Shown piece by piece: positions 42,371 to 49,332 of a stretch of DNA of 64,000 nucleotides. The position numbers were made by a program, and so were the translations under genes. Location: positions 1-64,000 of the forward strand of contig CAITNF010000017.1 of assembly GCA_903893745.1 (NCBI GenBank), read 5' to 3'. The notes beneath the pieces are model-generated. The model searched no databases. It had not been told where the DNA came from and saw nothing but the letters and a program-made list of their open reading frames with translations. The DNA is from an uncultured Actinomycetes bacterium. Its GTDB lineage: Bacteria > Actinomycetota > Acidimicrobiia > Acidimicrobiales > RAAP-2. Each line of letters starts with the position of its first letter. Within the stretch, counting starts at the first letter, position 1.

Positions 42371-43620
42371 GCGCCGCCCAGCGATTTTCAAGTCGTACCT
42401 TCGCGGCGCTGGGCGTCCGTAATTTTCGCCTTTACTTTTTTGGCCAGCTGGTCTCACTGTCGGGCACGTGGATGCAGTCAGTGGCCCAGGGTTGGCTTGT
42501 CTTGCAACTCACCGGGTCGTCACTCGACTTAGGTATTGCGATTGCGCTGCAGTATCTGCCAATGCTCATATTTGGTTCCTACGGTGGATTGGTCGCCGAC
42601 CGTAGTGATAAGCGCCGCATCCTCTATATCACGCAGTCTGGAGCAGGTTTGGTCGCGGTGGCGCTCGGTGTCATGGTCTCTACGCACCACGTCACGCTCT
42701 GGCTCGTCTACGTCCTCGGATTGGCGCTGGGGGTGGCCAACATGTTCGACGTGCCAGCCCGTCAGGCGTTCATGCAGCAGATGGTGGGCCGTGACTTAAT
42801 TACTAATGCCGTGAGTTTGAATGGCGTCTTGATGAATGCGGGGCGAATGATCGGGCCGGCCATTGCGGCTGGCGTGATTGCGTTGGTCGGCGACGCGGCC
42901 TGTTTCTACGTGAACGCCGTAACGTTCCTGGCGGTATTAGTGGCGTTGAAGGCAATGAAGGGCAGCGAGTTTCTTCCCATGGCGACCGTCGCTCGCGAAC
43001 CGGGTCAACTTCGTCTGGGTCTTCGCTACGTACGTGACAACCCGCTGCTGCGGAACGTGCTCGTTGCGGTAGCGCTCGTGGGGACGTTCGCGTTCAACTT
43101 CACGACGACGCTACCCATGTTGGCGCACACGACTTTCCATCAAAAAACTGCCGGACATTACGGTCTCTTAATGGGAGCGATGGGCCTCGGGGCGGTAATC
43201 GGGGGACTGTACGTAGCGCACCGTTCTCGCCCCACTTCGCGACTACTTATCGTCTTGGCCGTGGGCTTTGGATTCTTTATGACGCTCGTGGCGTTCGCGC
43301 CATCGTTGCTGTGGGCAGAAATTGCACTCATTCCCACTGGGGCATTCTCAATTGCGTTTGTGTCGACGGCGAACGCGACCTTGCAATTGAACTCGAGCCA
43401 GCAGATGCGCGGACGAGTCATGAGTCTGCACGCCACCGCGTTTTTGGGCTCCACACCGATCGGTGCACCGATTGTTGGCCTGGTGATTGAAGCGACCAAC
43501 CCGAGAGTTGGAATCTTCTTGGGCGCCGCAGTAACGCTGGCCACCGCCGTGATGCTGGTCTGGGTACTTCGGGCGAGCCGCCACAGTGTGGCAACGGCGC
43601 AGCACTTTTTGCTGCCTTAA
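42367..43620 (+). CDS. MFS transporter (EntS-like MFS_3 exporter)
   Basis: 417 residues, about 12 membrane segments. NFRLYFFGQLVSLSGTWMQSVAQGWLV, the loop GGLVADRSDKRR and DVPARQAFMQQMVG are typical of the EntS/MFS_3 branch, which exports siderophores and drugs. Coupled to marR; convergent with the acyl-CoA dehydrogenase gene (4-base overlap). Confidence 0.9.
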   Translation: MSAAQRFSSRTFAALGVRNFRLYFFGQLVSLSGTWMQSVAQGWLVLQLTGSSLDLGIAIALQYLPMLIFGSYGGLVADRSDKRRILYITQSGAGLVAVALGVMVSTHHVTLWLVYVLGLALGVANMFDVPARQAFMQQMVGRDLITNAVSLNGVLMNAGRMIGPAIAAGVIALVGDAACFYVNAVTFLAVLVALKAMKGSEFLPMATVAREPGQLRLGLRYVRDNPLLRNVLVAVALVGTFAFNFTTTLPMLAHTTFHQKTAGHYGLLMGAMGLGAVIGGLYVAHRSRPTSRLLIVLAVGFGFFMTLVAFAPSLLWAEIALIPTGAFSIAFVSTANATLQLNSSQQMRGRVMSLHATAFLGSTPIGAPIVGLVIEATNPRVGIFLGAAVTLATAVMLVWVLRASRHSVATAQHFLLP

Positions 43621-44840
43621 ACTTTTGGCTCTTTCGGGAGTCCGAGTGCTCGTTCGCCAATGATGTTGCGCTGGATTTCGGCCGTACCGCCCCAAATGGT
43701 CTCCGAGCGTGAGAAGAAGAATGCCGCTTGGAGATCAGAGACGGGATAGTCCGCTCGACCTCGACGAATGCCGGGCAGTAATCCTTGCGCATCCCCCTTG
43801 CCAGTGAGCAGCTGGGCCTCCATACCTAAAATATTGAGGGCTAGCTCCATTGTTGAACGATGCGTCTCGGACCAGAACATTTTGTTGCACGCCCCGAGCA
43901 GCGCGGCGTTGTGCGTTCCATGGAGAGCGTCAGTAAGTGAGCGGTAGCCATTAATTTCCATGATCTTGACCTTCTGCCAGGCCTTGACTAAATCGTCGCG
44001 GACTCGTAGATCTTCGTTGCGACCTACGCGCTTGGCCTCACCAACGATCTGCTCCCACTCTTTTAAAAATCGTCGGTAGCCCGTGGTCGACGAAGAGCCT
44101 CGTTCGAAGCCCAAAGTGGTCATGGCCACTTTCCAGCCATTGTTGACGCCACCGACAACGTTGCCCGCGTTACAACGCGCGTTGGTAAAGAAGACCTCGT
44201 TGAACTCCGCCGACCCATCGACCTGCGTAATTGGTCGGACCTCAACCCCCTCTTGATGCATTGGTACGAGTAAGTAGCTAATACCAGCGTGTTGCGGAGC
44301 GTCAGGGTTGGTGCGGGCCATTAGGAAGACGTAGTCCGCGTGCTGCGCTTGGGTCGTCCAGACCTTTTGGCCATTAATCACCCATTCGTCGCCGTCAAGT
44401 ACGGCACTCGTCTTTAGACTCGCAAGGTCTGAACCAGAATCGGGTTCGGAGAAACCTTGGCACCACGCGATTCGACCTTGCAAAATTCCGGGGATGAACT
44501 CTTGCTTTTGCTCTTCGGTTCCCCATTGAAGAATTGTTGGACCAACGAGCGTGTCGCCAAAGAAGTCCGCGCGCATTGGTGCACCGGCCTTGGCGAACTC
44601 TTCACTTAGGACAACTTGTTGCAGGAGCGAAAGACCTTTGCCGCCGTATTCAGTCGGCCAACCAGCGCAGATCCATCCTCCCGCAAAGAGTTTTTCGGTC
44701 CACGTTTGATTAAAGAGTTTTCGCTCTTCGTCACTTAATGAAAAGCCGTCATCAAACCAGCCCGAAGGGAGATTGGCCTCAAGCCACGTTCGAATCTCCG
44801 CTCGAAAGGCCTCTGCTTCTGGTGGGTAGGTCAAGTCCAT
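43617..44840 (-). CDS. Acyl-CoA dehydrogenase
   Basis: 407 residues from the ATG at 44840 (an ATG three codons earlier is equal in merit; a frame back to 44987 is not family-like). N-terminal MDLTYPPEAEAFRAEIRTWL, the FAD-binding GFSEPDSGSDLASLKT, VWTTQAQHADY and the C-terminal SRSETIWGGTAEIQRNIIGE are standard. It oxidises an acyl-CoA to the 2,3-enoyl-CoA, passing electrons to ETF. It is not adjacent to other beta-oxidation genes. Confidence 0.92.
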   Translation of the reverse strand: MDLTYPPEAEAFRAEIRTWLEANLPSGWFDDGFSLSDEERKLFNQTWTEKLFAGGWICAGWPTEYGGKGLSLLQQVVLSEEFAKAGAPMRADFFGDTLVGPTILQWGTEEQKQEFIPGILQGRIAWCQGFSEPDSGSDLASLKTSAVLDGDEWVINGQKVWTTQAQHADYVFLMARTNPDAPQHAGISYLLVPMHQEGVEVRPITQVDGSAEFNEVFFTNARCNAGNVVGGVNNGWKVAMTTLGFERGSSSTTGYRRFLKEWEQIVGEAKRVGRNEDLRVRDDLVKAWQKVKIMEINGYRSLTDALHGTHNAALLGACNKMFWSETHRSTMELALNILGMEAQLLTGKGDAQGLLPGIRRGRADYPVSDLQAAFFFSRSETIWGGTAEIQRNIIGERALGLPKEPKV

Positions 44841-44944
44841 AGGTGGCATCGTAGCCAGCCGAGAGCCGACCTCCGGCGGGCTATTTGTGTCATCAGGAGA
44901 TTTGGGGGAGACTGGAGAACTCCGCCTTACTGGAAAGTAGCCCC

Positions 44945-46315
44945 GTGCCCCGCTCGATCCGCCAGACCATGCTTGATACCCGGGCATCTTGGGACCGCTC
45001 TCGGGCCATTGTGACGCCCCCTCGCGTCCCCGCTCGCCCCGCCAGCCCTGGAAAAAGCCGTGTCGCCTTCTTGATTTACCGTGGAAATCCGCGATGCGGT
45101 GGTCAGGGCGTCTACACCCGCCACCTCACTCGTGAACTCGTGCGCCTGGGCCACAGCGTCGAGGTCTTCGCCGGAGGGCCCTGGCCCGAGCTCGACGACG
45201 GGGTCGGCTTTACCCCGGTGCCAGGCCTCGATCTCTATCGAGACCCCGATCCTTTTCGAATTCCCGCTCGGCGTGAGTTCAAGTCATTCGCGGACATTGT
45301 GGAGTTCGCCATCATGTTGACCGGAGGGTTTGGTGAACCCTTGGCGTACTCGATGCGCCTCAAGAAGTTTCTGCGTCATCGTCGCGACGACTTTGACATC
45401 GTGCACGATAACCAGTGCATGGGTTCGGGCGTCCTCGCCCTGCATCGCGCGGGTTGGCCGCTGCTCGAGACATTGCATCATCCGATTACCGTCGATCGAT
45501 CGATTGCCCTCGATCACGCGGAGACGATGTGGAAGCGTTACACCACTCGACGGTGGTTTGGCTTTTTGCGAATGCAAGTTCGTGTGGTAAAAAAACTACC
45601 CGCGGTATTGACGGTCTCGCACAACTCGCGCATTGACATTAACGCTCAGATGGCCGTGCCCCTTGATCGGCTGACCGTCGTGCCGGTGGGTGTTGACCAC
45701 ACCGTGTTCAAACCCTACGACGACGTGGTTAAGAAAAAGGGTCGCTTGATGGTGACCTCGAGTAGTGACGTCCCGATGAAGGGCCTCGTGCCACTGCTCG
45801 AGGCGATTGCCAAACTCCGAGTCGAGCGCGATGTTGATCTGATCGTGATTGGTCAACCACGAGCTCACGGTCGTGTCGCGTCCACCATGGAACGTCTAGG
45901 TCTCAACGATATTGTCACGACCATCTCGGGGGTCAGCGACGAAGAACTAGCTCGCCTCTATGGTGAGGCCGAAGTGGCAATTGTGCCGAGCCTCTACGAA
46001 GGATTCTCTCTACCGGCGATTGAGGCCATGAGTTGTGGTGTTGCCGTCGTGGCCACGACGGGTGGGGCACTGCCCGAGGTAGTGGGCACTAGTGGCGAGA
46101 CGGGTCTTCTCGTGGAGCCCAACGACCCTGACGCGCTCGTCGCTGCCATACGAGAGCTCCTGGATAATCCCGAACTACGTGAGCGCCTGGGTGCCAATGG
46201 CCGTGAGCGCGTCATGCAACGCTTTACTTGGGAGGTGACGGCGAGAGGAACCGCCGCCTGTTACGACGCGATCCTTTCTGGTTCCGCGCTACCCGAGTCG
46301 ATGACGTTCGACTGA
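44945..46315 (+). CDS. Glycosyltransferase family 4 protein
   Basis: 456 residues from a GTG at 44945 with GGAAAG seven bases before (an ATG at 44969 is the alternative). N-terminal half RVAFLIYRGNPRCGGQGVYTRHLTRELVRLGH is a GT-B acceptor domain; the C-terminal half has the nucleotide-sugar site SLYEGFSLPAIEAMSCGVAVVATTGGALPEVVG. A retaining sugar transfer is expected. It is first of three tightly coupled genes with a methyltransferase and a barrel protein. Confidence 0.9.
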   Translation: MPRSIRQTMLDTRASWDRSRAIVTPPRVPARPASPGKSRVAFLIYRGNPRCGGQGVYTRHLTRELVRLGHSVEVFAGGPWPELDDGVGFTPVPGLDLYRDPDPFRIPARREFKSFADIVEFAIMLTGGFGEPLAYSMRLKKFLRHRRDDFDIVHDNQCMGSGVLALHRAGWPLLETLHHPITVDRSIALDHAETMWKRYTTRRWFGFLRMQVRVVKKLPAVLTVSHNSRIDINAQMAVPLDRLTVVPVGVDHTVFKPYDDVVKKKGRLMVTSSSDVPMKGLVPLLEAIAKLRVERDVDLIVIGQPRAHGRVASTMERLGLNDIVTTISGVSDEELARLYGEAEVAIVPSLYEGFSLPAIEAMSCGVAVVATTGGALPEVVGTSGETGLLVEPNDPDALVAAIRELLDNPELRERLGANGRERVMQRFTWEVTARGTAACYDAILSGSALPESMTFD

Positions 46316-47037
46316 TGCTCACGGCTGACTACGACCGACTGGGACTGCAGCCCGGGGACGCGATCTTGGACCTGGGCTGTGGATTTGGTCGCCACGCCTT
46401 TGAGGCCGCTCGACGTGGGGCGAACGTGGTCGCTCTCGATGCCGGGCGTGATGAAGTCGTGGGTGTCGCGGCGACCTTTGCGGCCATGGACGAAGCCGGT
46501 GAATTAGCCGCCCACGAGGTGCACACCGCAGCGGTCCAGGGTGACGCACTACAGCTCCCGTTTGCCAACGAGACCTTTGACCGGGTTATCTGTTCCGAAG
46601 TGCTCGAACACATCCCTAACGATCTCGAAGCGATGGGCGAATTGGCGAGAGTGTTAAAGGCTGGGGGAACCATGGCCATCACGGTGCCGCGCTTTGGACC
46701 CGAAGTTATTAACTGGGCCCTGTCGGACGCGTATCACAATGTTCCAGGTGGACATATTCGGATCTATCGACGGTCGGTACTCACCGCTCGACTGACCTCA
46801 GTGGGTCTTCGAGTCACTGGTCACCACTACGCGCACGGACTGCACAGTCCGTACTGGTGGTTGAAGTGTCTGGTGGGTACAACGAATGAGGCCAATCCAT
46901 TGGTGCGCGCCTATCACCGACTGCTCGTGTGGGACATTATGCACCGCCCTCGCACGACTCGATGGGCGGAGCGCGTGCTGTCGCCGCTGATGGGCAAATC
47001 CATCGTGGTCTATCTCATCAAGCCGGCGACCTCATGA
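46315..47037 (+). CDS. SAM-dependent methyltransferase (class I)
   Basis: 240 residues from the ATG at 46315, which shares a base with the glycosyltransferase stop. Motif I ILDLGCGFGRHAF (about 20-32), an acidic VVALDAG, then ICSEVLEHIPNDLEAMGELARVLKAGG match the UbiE/Methyltransf_11 type. The following gene overlaps by ATGA, so all three should be made together. It may methylate the sugar or lipid acceptor of the neighbouring glycosyltransferase. Confidence 0.9.
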   Translation: MLTADYDRLGLQPGDAILDLGCGFGRHAFEAARRGANVVALDAGRDEVVGVAATFAAMDEAGELAAHEVHTAAVQGDALQLPFANETFDRVICSEVLEHIPNDLEAMGELARVLKAGGTMAITVPRFGPEVINWALSDAYHNVPGGHIRIYRRSVLTARLTSVGLRVTGHHYAHGLHSPYWWLKCLVGTTNEANPLVRAYHRLLVWDIMHRPRTTRWAERVLSPLMGKSIVVYLIKPATS

Positions 47038-48110
47038 CTGTATCGACGAATCAACTTGCGGGCGTGCCGGGGATCGTCAGCGCCGACGAACTAGCCGTGA
47101 GCGCCGCGTATCTCGCAAACCTTCAGACCAGCAACGGACAGATCCCATGGTTTGAAGGTGGTCACTGTGACCCGTGGAATCACGTGGAAGCAGCCATGGC
47201 CCTCACGGTCAGCGGTCACGAGGCTGGGGCTCGAGCTGCGTATCGCTGGCTGGAATCGGCCCAATTAGGCAACGGCGCCTGGTTTAACTACTACCGCTCT
47301 GAGCGAGTACAAGATGCCCGACTCGATACCAACGTCTGTGCGTATCTGGCGACTGGTCTCTACCACTACCTGCTGGCCACTGATGACGTCGATTTTGTCG
47401 CTGCAATGTGGCCGGTCGTCGAGCGCGCCATCGAATTCGTATTGCGCTGGCAGATGGCCGACGGCACCATTCGCTGGTCGCTCGACTCGGTCGGTCGCCC
47501 CGAGAGTTACGCACTCCTGACGGGGTCGTCTTCGATTTTTCACTCGTTACGGTGCGCGGTGGCCTTGGGCGAACGGCTCGATGTCACGCGACCAAGTTGG
47601 GAACTCGCTAGTGGACAGCTCGGACACGTAGTCGCGCATCACCCCGGGGCCTTCGCGCCGAAGAACGAGTTTGCGATGGACTGGTACTACCCGATGTTTA
47701 GCGGTGCCCTCGTGGGTGAACTGGCGGAGCAGCGAATGATGGACGGGTGGGAGCGACACGTTATGGATGGCTACGGGGTGCGGTGTGTTTCGACCAATGA
47801 CTGGGTCACGGCCGCCGAGACGGCCGAATTTGTTCTGACCCTCGACGCCATGGGGCTGACGAGTCGCGCGCTCGACCTTTTTGCGGTGACCACTCGTCAT
47901 CGTCGTGACGACGGCGCCTACTGGACGGGTATTGCCTATCCCGAGAAAGTCACGTTCCCAGATCGTGAGACGACGTCGTACACGGTGGCCGCAATTATTC
48001 TGGCGGCCGATGCGCTGACGTCCTCATCAGCGGCGTCCGGACTCTTTCGACATGGCGTACTCGACCGACCGTTAGACCTGCCAGAGCGAGACTGTCCACT
48101 AACTCGCTAG
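47034..48110 (+). CDS. (Alpha/alpha) barrel protein related to prenyltransferase/squalene-cyclase or glycosidase folds
   Basis: 358 residues from the ATG at 47034 (ATGA overlap). The chain is helical with repeated blocks: LANLQTSNGQIPWFEGGHCDPWNHVEA, WLESAQLGNGAWFNYY, FVLRWQMADGTIRWSL, EFAMDWYYPMFSGAL, RHRRDDGAYWTGIAYPEK. QxxDGxxxW-like repeats recall prenyltransferase/squalene-oxidase repeats, but conserved Asp/Trp and the WNHVEA and DWYYP segments could equally suit a glycosidase-like barrel. It does not look membrane-bound and has no signal peptide. Its job should link to the coupled glycosyltransferase and methyltransferase. Confidence 0.7.
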   Translation: MTVSTNQLAGVPGIVSADELAVSAAYLANLQTSNGQIPWFEGGHCDPWNHVEAAMALTVSGHEAGARAAYRWLESAQLGNGAWFNYYRSERVQDARLDTNVCAYLATGLYHYLLATDDVDFVAAMWPVVERAIEFVLRWQMADGTIRWSLDSVGRPESYALLTGSSSIFHSLRCAVALGERLDVTRPSWELASGQLGHVVAHHPGAFAPKNEFAMDWYYPMFSGALVGELAEQRMMDGWERHVMDGYGVRCVSTNDWVTAAETAEFVLTLDAMGLTSRALDLFAVTTRHRRDDGAYWTGIAYPEKVTFPDRETTSYTVAAIILAADALTSSSAASGLFRHGVLDRPLDLPERDCPLTR

Positions 48111-48742
48111 CGAACAGCGCGTAAGACGCGCAACGAACCTTCCGCCCCAATAGCTTCGAAGCGTCCGCTCGACAGAGCCGCAAGGAAGATCTCGTAGGGC
48201 GGGCGGCCTCCATCGGCGGGGTCGGCAAAGACGTCGTGAATCATTAAGAGTCCACCGCGGACAACCTTTGGTGTCCACTGTTCGTAGTCGGCCCACGCGA
48301 CGTCGTGGCCGTGACCTCCGTCAATAAACAGCAGTCCGAGCGGTTGGTCAAAGTGACGGGCCACCACGCTCGAGTGACCGACCAGACCCACCACGGTGGC
48401 TTCAAGTTGGGCCTCGCCAATCGTTCGCTGCCACGAGGGCAAGGTGTTGAGACGTCCATCGTTCGGGTCCACGAGCTCGGGGTCGAAGTGCTCCCAGCCC
48501 TCTTGATTCTCCTCGCTACCGTGGTGGTGATCGAGTGAGTACAGCACGGCTCCGACGGTCTCGGCGGCCGCGCCCAGATAGATCGTTGACTTTCCGCACC
48601 ACGAACCAATTTCGAGCCACGTTTTGGTCAAGTCTTGATCGGTTTCGAGCTCACCAAAACTCGTGAGCGCGAGACCCTCATTTCGCGGCATAAAGCCCTT
48701 CACCTCGTCAGCGAAGGTCAGGAGTTCGTCGCGTCGCGTCAA
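48107..48742 (-). CDS. Class I methyltransferase-like protein (Methyltransf_24 / hydroxylase-associated type)
   Basis: 211 residues if it starts at the TTG at 48742, whose TTGA overlaps the stop of the UPF0016 gene; an ATG at 48769 would overlap more. Motif I is TWLEIGSWCGKSTIYLGAAA, followed by LYSLDHHHG, LGLLFIDGGHGHD and GGLLMIHDVF, all typical of SAM-binding proteins in sugar-modifying and cephalosporin-hydroxylase-like families. It converges with the barrel gene (4-base overlap), so it faces the glycosyltransferase operon and may share its pathway. Confidence 0.83.
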   Translation of the reverse strand: MTRRDELLTFADEVKGFMPRNEGLALTSFGELETDQDLTKTWLEIGSWCGKSTIYLGAAAETVGAVLYSLDHHHGSEENQEGWEHFDPELVDPNDGRLNTLPSWQRTIGEAQLEATVVGLVGHSSVVARHFDQPLGLLFIDGGHGHDVAWADYEQWTPKVVRGGLLMIHDVFADPADGGRPPYEIFLAALSSGRFEAIGAEGSLRVLRAVR

Positions 48743-49332
48743 CGTAGCGCCAATGACACAAACGTCCATACGCCCAACCCCGCAAATATGATCCCACCGG
48801 CCATGCGAATCTTGGCGAGGGGAATCCAACGCTGCAAGAATTTTCCACCGTAAGCGCCCAGTGTCGCGACAGCAATCATGGCCAGGGAACAGGCCGCAAA
48901 AACGCTCCAGGGTTGATGGAACTTCGCCGAGAGGTTGGCCGCCTGAATCTGGGTCAGGTCGCCAAATTCACCAATGAAGATAACGCTAAATGCTGTCGTC
49001 ATCTCTCGCAGACGAGTGCCGCGGTGCTCAGGCTCCGCCTCGCGCTCACCTTCACGCTCCTCGCTCTCTTCGGAAACGAAAAAGAGGTAGGCCGCCCCCG
49101 CGAGAAACAGGACTCCGACAATGACCTCCTTCAAAGTGTGGGGCAGCAACGTAAGGAGCGATCCAGCCGCTACCGCCAGACCCATCTGCACAACAAAGCC
49201 GGCCGACGCTCCAATGGCGATTGAGAGTGGCCGCGCCCGTGTTGACATGATGATCGTGGCAATCATGGTCTTGTCGGGTAGTTCCAGGACGAACATAAGT
49301 GCGATGATGCCAAGAAATGTTCCGATGCTCAT
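48739..49332 (-). CDS. UPF0016/GDT1 (TMEM165)-family cation transporter
   Basis: 197 residues, six membrane segments in two inverted halves. The paired ion-binding motifs ELPDKT (about 17-22) and EFGDLT (near residue 127) are present; the Lys of the second is replaced by Leu. A charged central loop (SEESEEREGEREAEPEHRG) divides the halves. Family members move Mn2+ or Ca2+ out of the cytoplasm. Translation is coupled to the following methyltransferase-like gene. Confidence 0.9.
   Translation of the reverse strand: MSIGTFLGIIALMFVLELPDKTMIATIIMSTRARPLSIAIGASAGFVVQMGLAVAAGSLLTLLPHTLKEVIVGVLFLAGAAYLFFVSEESEEREGEREAEPEHRGTRLREMTTAFSVIFIGEFGDLTQIQAANLSAKFHQPWSVFAACSLAMIAVATLGAYGGKFLQRWIPLAKIRMAGGIIFAGLGVWTFVSLALR

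Follow-up and report, generated by a model that had tools for sequence, protein, structure and literature searches.

The question raised by the locus described here is what four tightly packed genes, for a glycosyltransferase, two methyltransferases and an (alpha/alpha)-barrel protein, make between them. The locus lies at positions 44,945 to 48,742 of the window, by which we mean the whole 64,000-nucleotide stretch analysed (contig CAITNF010000017.1, from an uncultured member of the Acidimicrobiales). A sequence-only reading had suggested that the set might synthesize or trim a methylated glycoconjugate or glycolipid of unknown structure. Our analysis indicates that the cluster very probably makes and recycles an intracellular polymer of the methylmannose polysaccharide (MMP) type. 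It matches the characterized MMP cluster, which does both, so that synthesis and trimming were well foreseen; 'unknown structure' understated the case, the mycobacterial cluster having a known product, and nothing here supported a glycolipid. The evidence consists of sequence orthology, gene order, conservation across the order, the fold of MmpH and retention of most catalytic residues. Below, L-numbers denote loci, G-numbers genomes and f-numbers families, G000 being the window's genome (1.66 Mb, 96.4% completeness, one MmpH); PMC9883506 and PMC2674218 are cited from parts of their text. The four genes are:

44969..46315 (start may be GTG 44945), + strand: manT, predicted glycosyltransferase family 4 (GT4) alpha-(1->4)-mannosyltransferase (match to 7qsg, Pfam GT1/GT4, conserved residues)
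46315..47037, + strand: pMeT3, putative 3-O-methyltransferase of the class I S-adenosylmethionine-dependent type (Pfam Methyltransf_11, E 2.5e-20; likeness to f78)
47034..48110, + strand: mmpH, predicted MMP alpha-(1->4)-endomannosidase with an (alpha/alpha)6 barrel (match to 7qsj, AlphaFold2, Foldseek)
48107..48742 (TTG start; ATG 48769 possible), - strand: meT1, predicted MMP 1-O-methyltransferase, convergent (match to 6g7d/6g80/6h40, Pfam Methyltransf_24)

The manT stop codon (TGA, 46313-46315) shares one base pair with the pMeT3 ATG from 46315, the end of pMeT3 (47037) and the start of MmpH (47034) overlap by 4 bp in ATGA, and the MmpH stop (TAG, 48108-48110) shares the 4-bp CTAG with the end of the convergent MeT1 (48107). 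The sequence bears out the gene positions and the coupled and convergent overlaps noted earlier. For manT the frame given earlier holds and the start is uncertain: GTG 44945 was first proposed, and ATG 44969 is the alternative. Of the 80 named loci described below, at least 59 have a ManT match that sets in at residue 1-3 of the protein read from ATG 44969.

Assignment of the four products

The barrel protein was compared with all solved structures using phmmer and gave a single match up to E 5, PDB entry 7qsj (E 4.6e-100), titled methylmannose polysaccharide hydrolase MmpH from M. hassiacum. Its AlphaFold2 model (mean predicted local distance difference test, pLDDT, 95.2; alignment A1 of 44 sequences) was searched against the PDB with Foldseek, where both 7qsj chains rank first (template modelling score, TM, 0.92-0.97; root mean square deviation 1.1-1.2 A; 46-47% identity) and the match after 7qsj stands at E 2.9e-08. 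The product of the gene at 47034, for which structure prediction had been suggested, thus superposes on MmpH and not on terpene cyclases, and sequence and model together identify it as an MmpH orthologue. Other family models fit poorly: the best NCBIfam score, 38 bits against a cut-off of 821, goes to an oligosaccharide amylase model, and Pfam gives three matches at E 1 or better, neither GH15 nor GH125 among them. The GH15 glucodextranase and GH125 mannosidases of clan GH-L share the (alpha/alpha)6 barrel type, but they show no family-level sequence match to the window's MmpH and are reported at 8-13% identity to MmpH (PMC9883506).

ManT matches PDB chain 7qsg at E 2.2e-128 (432 bits), the next solved chain reaching E 1.9e-28 (103 bits). 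The PDB title of 7qsg is D-inositol 3-phosphate glycosyltransferase; the ManT structure is described in PMC9883506, with residue numbering that fits this chain. Equivalents of His142, Lys240, Asp293, Glu313 and Glu321 are kept in the window in the alignment to 7qsg, and the Leu291 position is a PimA-like Val. The match and the site residues identify an orthologue of ManT with its GDP-mannose site.

pMeT3 lies between manT and mmpH; five f78 genomes have a gene in the corresponding position that shares 52-56% identity with it, as expected of an orthologue. We call family f78 mycobacterium-like because the MmpH of one of its genomes closely matches 7qsj (603 bits, 327 residues). The motif DxGxGxGRH is invariant in 36 rows. 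Among solved chains only general matches and no close structure were found; the AlphaFold2 model (pLDDT 93.7) has the class I methyltransferase fold, and its nearest solved folds by Foldseek include the small-molecule methyltransferases RebM and AtmM at a TM of ~0.6, which leaves the substrate unfixed. The gene in this place is called pMeT3, a putative 3-O-methyltransferase, in PMC9883506, where the function is only proposed in mycobacteria too; we infer the same function here.

The best solved match of the convergent gene product by far is to 6g7d/6g80/6h40 (phmmer E 1.8e-58, residues 13-217). We take these entries to be MeT1, their PDB title reading only methyltransferase domain protein; on that identity of 6g7d the gene product is a MeT1 orthologue, which fits the gene's place in the cluster. 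For MmpH, then, the fold itself is in evidence, and the orthology of all four products is judged from sequence.

In mycobacteria the activities of ManT, MmpH and MeT1 have been demonstrated: MmpH cuts MMP internally and the fragments serve as primers that ManT elongates, while methylation is the work of MeT1, which acts on free 1-OH ends, and presumably of pMeT3 (PMC9883506). Since most catalytic residues of MmpH and ManT are kept, the same cycle of cutting, extending, methylating and capping may be expected in the window's genome. MmpH would cut mature chains to short primers, ManT would extend these from GDP-mannose, pMeT3 would methylate the new O3 positions and MeT1 would cap free reducing ends; the polymer would be an alpha-(1->4)-linked, 3-O-methylated mannose chain with a 1-O-methyl cap. 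The product in this clade is likely to be the same or closely related.

Conservation and descent of the cluster

MmpH was found in 56 of the 61 genomes of the window's genus and order (its own included), in 70/148 genomes drawn from the class and in 47/296 drawn from the phylum, the latter two draws at a threshold of E 1e-30. All four genes are present in 44 of 50 genus and order loci (L001-L050, own included), the other six being without ManT or MeT1, in 33/40 wider loci (L091-L130), and, among 80 named loci (L135-L214; 107 relatives found, 80 kept), in 70, all alike in gene order and strands. Because the set recurs at all these levels, the arrangement cannot be attributed to chance; the neighbourhood comparison that the sequence-only reading had called for thus found the genes kept together, in the order manT-pmeT3-mmpH with meT1 adjoining. 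MeT1 is convergent in most loci and on the same strand as MmpH in L046 and L109. It was not seen within the stretch examined in L033, L043, L096, L098, L102 and L104, and some other misses lie at contig ends.

The M. hassiacum MMP cluster (MHAS_04402-04405: manT, pmeT3, mmpH, meT1) has the same four families in the same order. Gene numbers with the MHAS and MAV prefixes both give this order (PMC9883506), and four mycobacterium-like loci (L091-L094) show manT-pmeT3-mmpH with meT1 convergent as in the window. The window's genome differs from M. hassiacum in having no marker of type I fatty acid synthase (FAS-I) and in carrying Asn50, Val102 and Tyr315 in MmpH. A survey of 162 mycobacterial and related genomes names homologues in Corynebacterium, Rhodococcus, Streptomyces and Nocardia (PMC9883506). 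No mention of MMP in the window's own class was found in the literature searched, a search whose scope left subscription journals mostly outside. The cluster would thus be a familiar type of system in a clade for which no report was found. It has two twists: the FAS-I marker was not found, and a residue next to the putative catalytic acid of MmpH is substituted clade-wide.

In a quick tree of MmpH (29 of 85 inner branches open), groups cluster by taxonomy, with 11 changes against a least possible 9 and a shuffled mean of 46.9. The tree largely follows taxonomy and therefore suits mainly vertical descent; the window's own order does not form one side of a branch (4 changes). One plasmid record was returned by a plasmid search, 11.85 Mb in size and listed as non-mobilizable. 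Titles of the named records are mostly Acidimicrobiaceae, Acidimicrobiales, Actinomycetes or actinobacterium, and many of the isolate names (palsa, bog, fen) point to peat and permafrost habitats.

Several loci are unusual. In L047 (G060, same order, f25) MmpH groups with f56 (support 84) and is of the Asp50/Phe102/Trp315 type, possibly through transfer or a misbinned contig. Four records titled Saccharibacteria or Acidobacteria (L155, L170, L177, L200) carry an MmpH 57-76% identical to the window's, probably because of mistitled records or mixed bins. In some genomes of family f7, which belongs to the same order (L061, L065, L068, L077), the MmpH match contains one stop codon, which may reflect end-of-gene overrun, assembly error or decay. 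Two f26 loci of the order (L114, L127) hold a highly diverged four-gene copy, with 33-36% identity in MmpH and long tree branches.

A number of observations weigh against assigning an MMP-type product. We know of no biochemistry for this clade. No gene for making a first primer was seen: beyond the four genes, only open reading frames (ORFs) overlapping them, mostly antisense, recur across order, class and phylum, and other families are confined to about one clade (40 most widespread ORF families from all-against-all clustering of ORFs of at least 90 aa in 60 wide loci, ~6 kb on each side and less at contig ends). Six of the 80 named loci (L187, L188, L193, L207, L210, L211) have no MeT1 in the ~4 kb past MmpH. 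The M. smegmatis gene numbers as printed put mmpH and meT1 in another order (PMC9883506). Finally, the window's MmpH departs from the M. hassiacum enzyme by Asp50->Asn, Phe102->Val and Trp315->Tyr, and replacement of Asp50 by Ala, like that of Asp47, drastically cut the activity of M. hassiacum MmpH (PMC9883506). These three positions vary within the family and were therefore not taken as defining it.

The MmpH active site

Residues are numbered as in M. hassiacum unless stated. The codons concerned are:

47169..47171, + strand: MmpH Asp46, equivalent to M. hassiacum Asp47, candidate catalytic acid (alignment to 7qsj)
47178..47180, + strand: MmpH Asn49, at the M. hassiacum Asp50 position, substituted (alignment and residue table)
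47817..47819, + strand: MmpH Glu262, equivalent to M. hassiacum Glu262, predicted catalytic base (alignment to 7qsj)

Alignment to 7qsj showed that Asp47, Trp49, Asn101, Thr163, Met215, Tyr219, Glu262 and Glu265 are kept in the window. The window's enzyme thus has in common with 7qsj, besides the fold, the base Glu262 and Asp47, Trp49, Asn101 and Glu265, and differs in three subsite residues that are replaced in most of its clade as well. Asp47 and Glu262 are present in the window and in all 93 own-class loci and are invariant in the 44 rows of A1, Glu262 also in every locus read. (The locus-by-locus residue counts leave out 13 short loci whose genomes are represented by longer ones.)

Position 50 is Asn in 92/93 own-class loci (all but L047). 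It is Asp in every f78 (5/5), f73 (8/8), f93 (2/2) and f105 (1/1) locus. Asn50 occurs in six of seven f56 loci and in the sole f61 locus too, and is therefore not a mark of the window's class alone. Position 102, Phe in M. hassiacum, is Val in 76 of the 93 own-class loci, and position 315, Trp in M. hassiacum, is Tyr in 76 of 77 loci that were read at this site in the genus, family and order. Six of the seven readable 'class2' rows keep Trp315, and the seventh fits L127 (G185), an own-order locus that bore this label wrongly, which leaves the class totals unchanged.

The natural Asn50 enzymes bear on which MmpH aspartate is the catalytic acid. Asp47 is labelled as the putative acid in a figure of the structural paper, and both aspartates are left possible (PMC9883506). 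Asn is unable to act as a general acid, so the window's clade argues for Asp47; as judged from these alignments, the Asn50 enzymes would favour Asp47 in that role, or else cleavage or its chemistry may be altered. The case for Asp47 as the only acid involved is not free of exceptions, two of the seven f56 loci (L111, L115) having Asn at both 47 and 50. These two loci lie outside the 44 rows of A1, the MmpH match of L115 is split over two frames, and their MmpH homologues are possibly inactive or changed enzymes.

The same substitutions raise the question of whether the machinery is applied to a different polymer, an MMP relative differing in length, methylation or cleavage and tuned by the Asn50/Val102/Tyr315 subsite. 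The changes are clade-wide and not sporadic, as the counts at positions 50 and 315 attest, and a variant product has a precedent in the acetylated MMP of Streptomyces griseus (PMC9883506). However, Asn50 reaches beyond the class into f56 and f61, and the subsite is known only through bound glycerol (PMC9883506), and on balance we consider such retuning possible but somewhat doubtful. Since it would be a variant within the assignment to an MMP-type polymer, its likelihood overlaps with that of the assignment itself.

Fatty acid synthase markers and the possible role of the polymer

The role of polymethylated polysaccharides is still debated, and FAS-I regulation is the standing proposal. For MMP the proposed role is acyl-chain binding and FAS-I regulation; for the glucose polymer, 6-O-methylglucose lipopolysaccharide (MGLP), a 2009 mutant study doubted FAS-I regulation (PMC2674218). 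MGLP is the other polymethylated polysaccharide found inside mycobacterial cells; a comparable role has been proposed for it, but its sugar and genes differ from those of MMP.

FAS-I was judged by one domain, PF08354, chosen because the positive control, Corynebacterium glutamicum, matches it in each run; PF17951 matched no control and was discarded. PF08354 was not found in 24 of 30 hand-chosen MmpH-bearing genomes, G000 included, and was present in five f78 genomes and one f105 genome. In the phylum draw it occurred in 10/296 genomes, six with MmpH and four without, so that 41 of the 47 MmpH genomes are without the marker, and in the class draw in 0/148. The draws used for MmpH and for FAS-I are taken to be the same genomes, as their sizes (296; 148) and listed handles agree. 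With the marker in none and MmpH in 70 of the 148 class genomes, FAS-I regulation cannot be the general role of MMP, if MMP is made there.

Markers for other lipid and polysaccharide pathways were less decisive. G000 has one stand-alone FabF match (423 bits), which is support for a type II fatty acid synthase (FAS-II) and not proof of one; the strict cut-off of 494 was passed by none of four genomes. The GpgS model NF010496 was passed by ten of ten genomes, by G000 barely (273 bits, cut-off 262), and GpgS alone does not show MGLP.

If MMP is made in these genomes, comparison alone would separate the polymer from FAS-I, and the environmental hosts would become places to test its role; it may act on acyl chains or in cold tolerance without any FAS-I. 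More broadly, MMP could be an ancient actinobacterial polymer, near-universal in one order seemingly without FAS-I, whose role was never FAS-I-related and whose mycobacterial link to FAS-I is secondary, while the order's retuned MmpH (Asn50/Val102/Tyr315) would give other primer sizes and hence another chain-length distribution. This combined proposal is a tentative one, with somewhat more speaking against it than for it.

Other readings of the gene set

Surface-glycan clusters commonly contain GT4 enzymes along with small methyltransferases, and the family scan of ManT lists an exopolysaccharide GT4 model first, far below its cut-off (115 vs 400 bits). A methylated cell-surface glycan or glycolipid cluster (O-antigen or phosphatidylinositol mannoside-like) that merely resembles the MMP genes is nevertheless unlikely, and we give it very little chance: MmpH has a single solved relative and occurs with its partners, ManT scores 432 bits with 7qsg against 103 for the next-best solved chain, and no other family among the 40 most widespread extends across order, class and phylum, the single-clade families being unannotated and export genes among them not ruled out individually. 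The least credible reading, which takes the barrel for a squalene or terpene cyclase in a gene set that acts on a glycosylated terpenoid, can practically be set aside, since 7qsj ranks first by both sequence and fold, squalene-hopene cyclase appears at rank 47 (TM 0.36), no DxDD motif is seen by eye in MmpH, and the weak matches in its favour miss their cut-offs (SQHop_cyclase 17.5 vs 26.2 bits, a second squalene/terpene cyclase Pfam model 10.0 vs 26.1 bits, TIGR01507 15.6 vs 431 bits). From the 'DG-W repeats' of the barrel the sequence-only reading had drawn two options, of which the glycosidase survives and the cyclase does not, the repeats giving only these sub-threshold squalene-cyclase matches.

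Neighbouring genes

Two neighbours outside the core of the MMP-type cluster were followed through the named loci:

43617..44840, - strand: acyl-CoA dehydrogenase-like gene, a lead only, divergent from manT (NCBIfam TIGR03204, 259 bits, cut-off 624)
48739..49332, - strand: GDT1-like membrane protein gene, upstream of MeT1 (Pfam GDT1, E 2e-34)

In each of the 55 named loci that show both manT and the acyl-CoA dehydrogenase-like gene, the two genes diverge, 101-154 bp apart. Where 1.5 kb or more of sequence lies upstream of manT, the acyl-CoA dehydrogenase-like gene was present, by tier of MmpH identity, in 42/42 loci at or above 65%, in 5/17 at 57-65% and in 0/7 below. A promoter and terminator scan of the gap on the manT side gave nothing; a control region shared by the two genes (window 43617-44968) is possible, and within the genus the neighbour is at most a hint of some connection with acyl-CoA metabolism. 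GDT1 and PepN, both neighbours of the window's locus, were not found in the mycobacterium-like loci. The MeT1 TTG start at 48742 overlaps the stop codon (48739-48741) of the upstream GDT1-like gene, a 4-bp gene overlap, and a GDT1-like gene is present in 49/52 of the close named loci, 12/17 of the middle ones and 2/11 of the distant ones.

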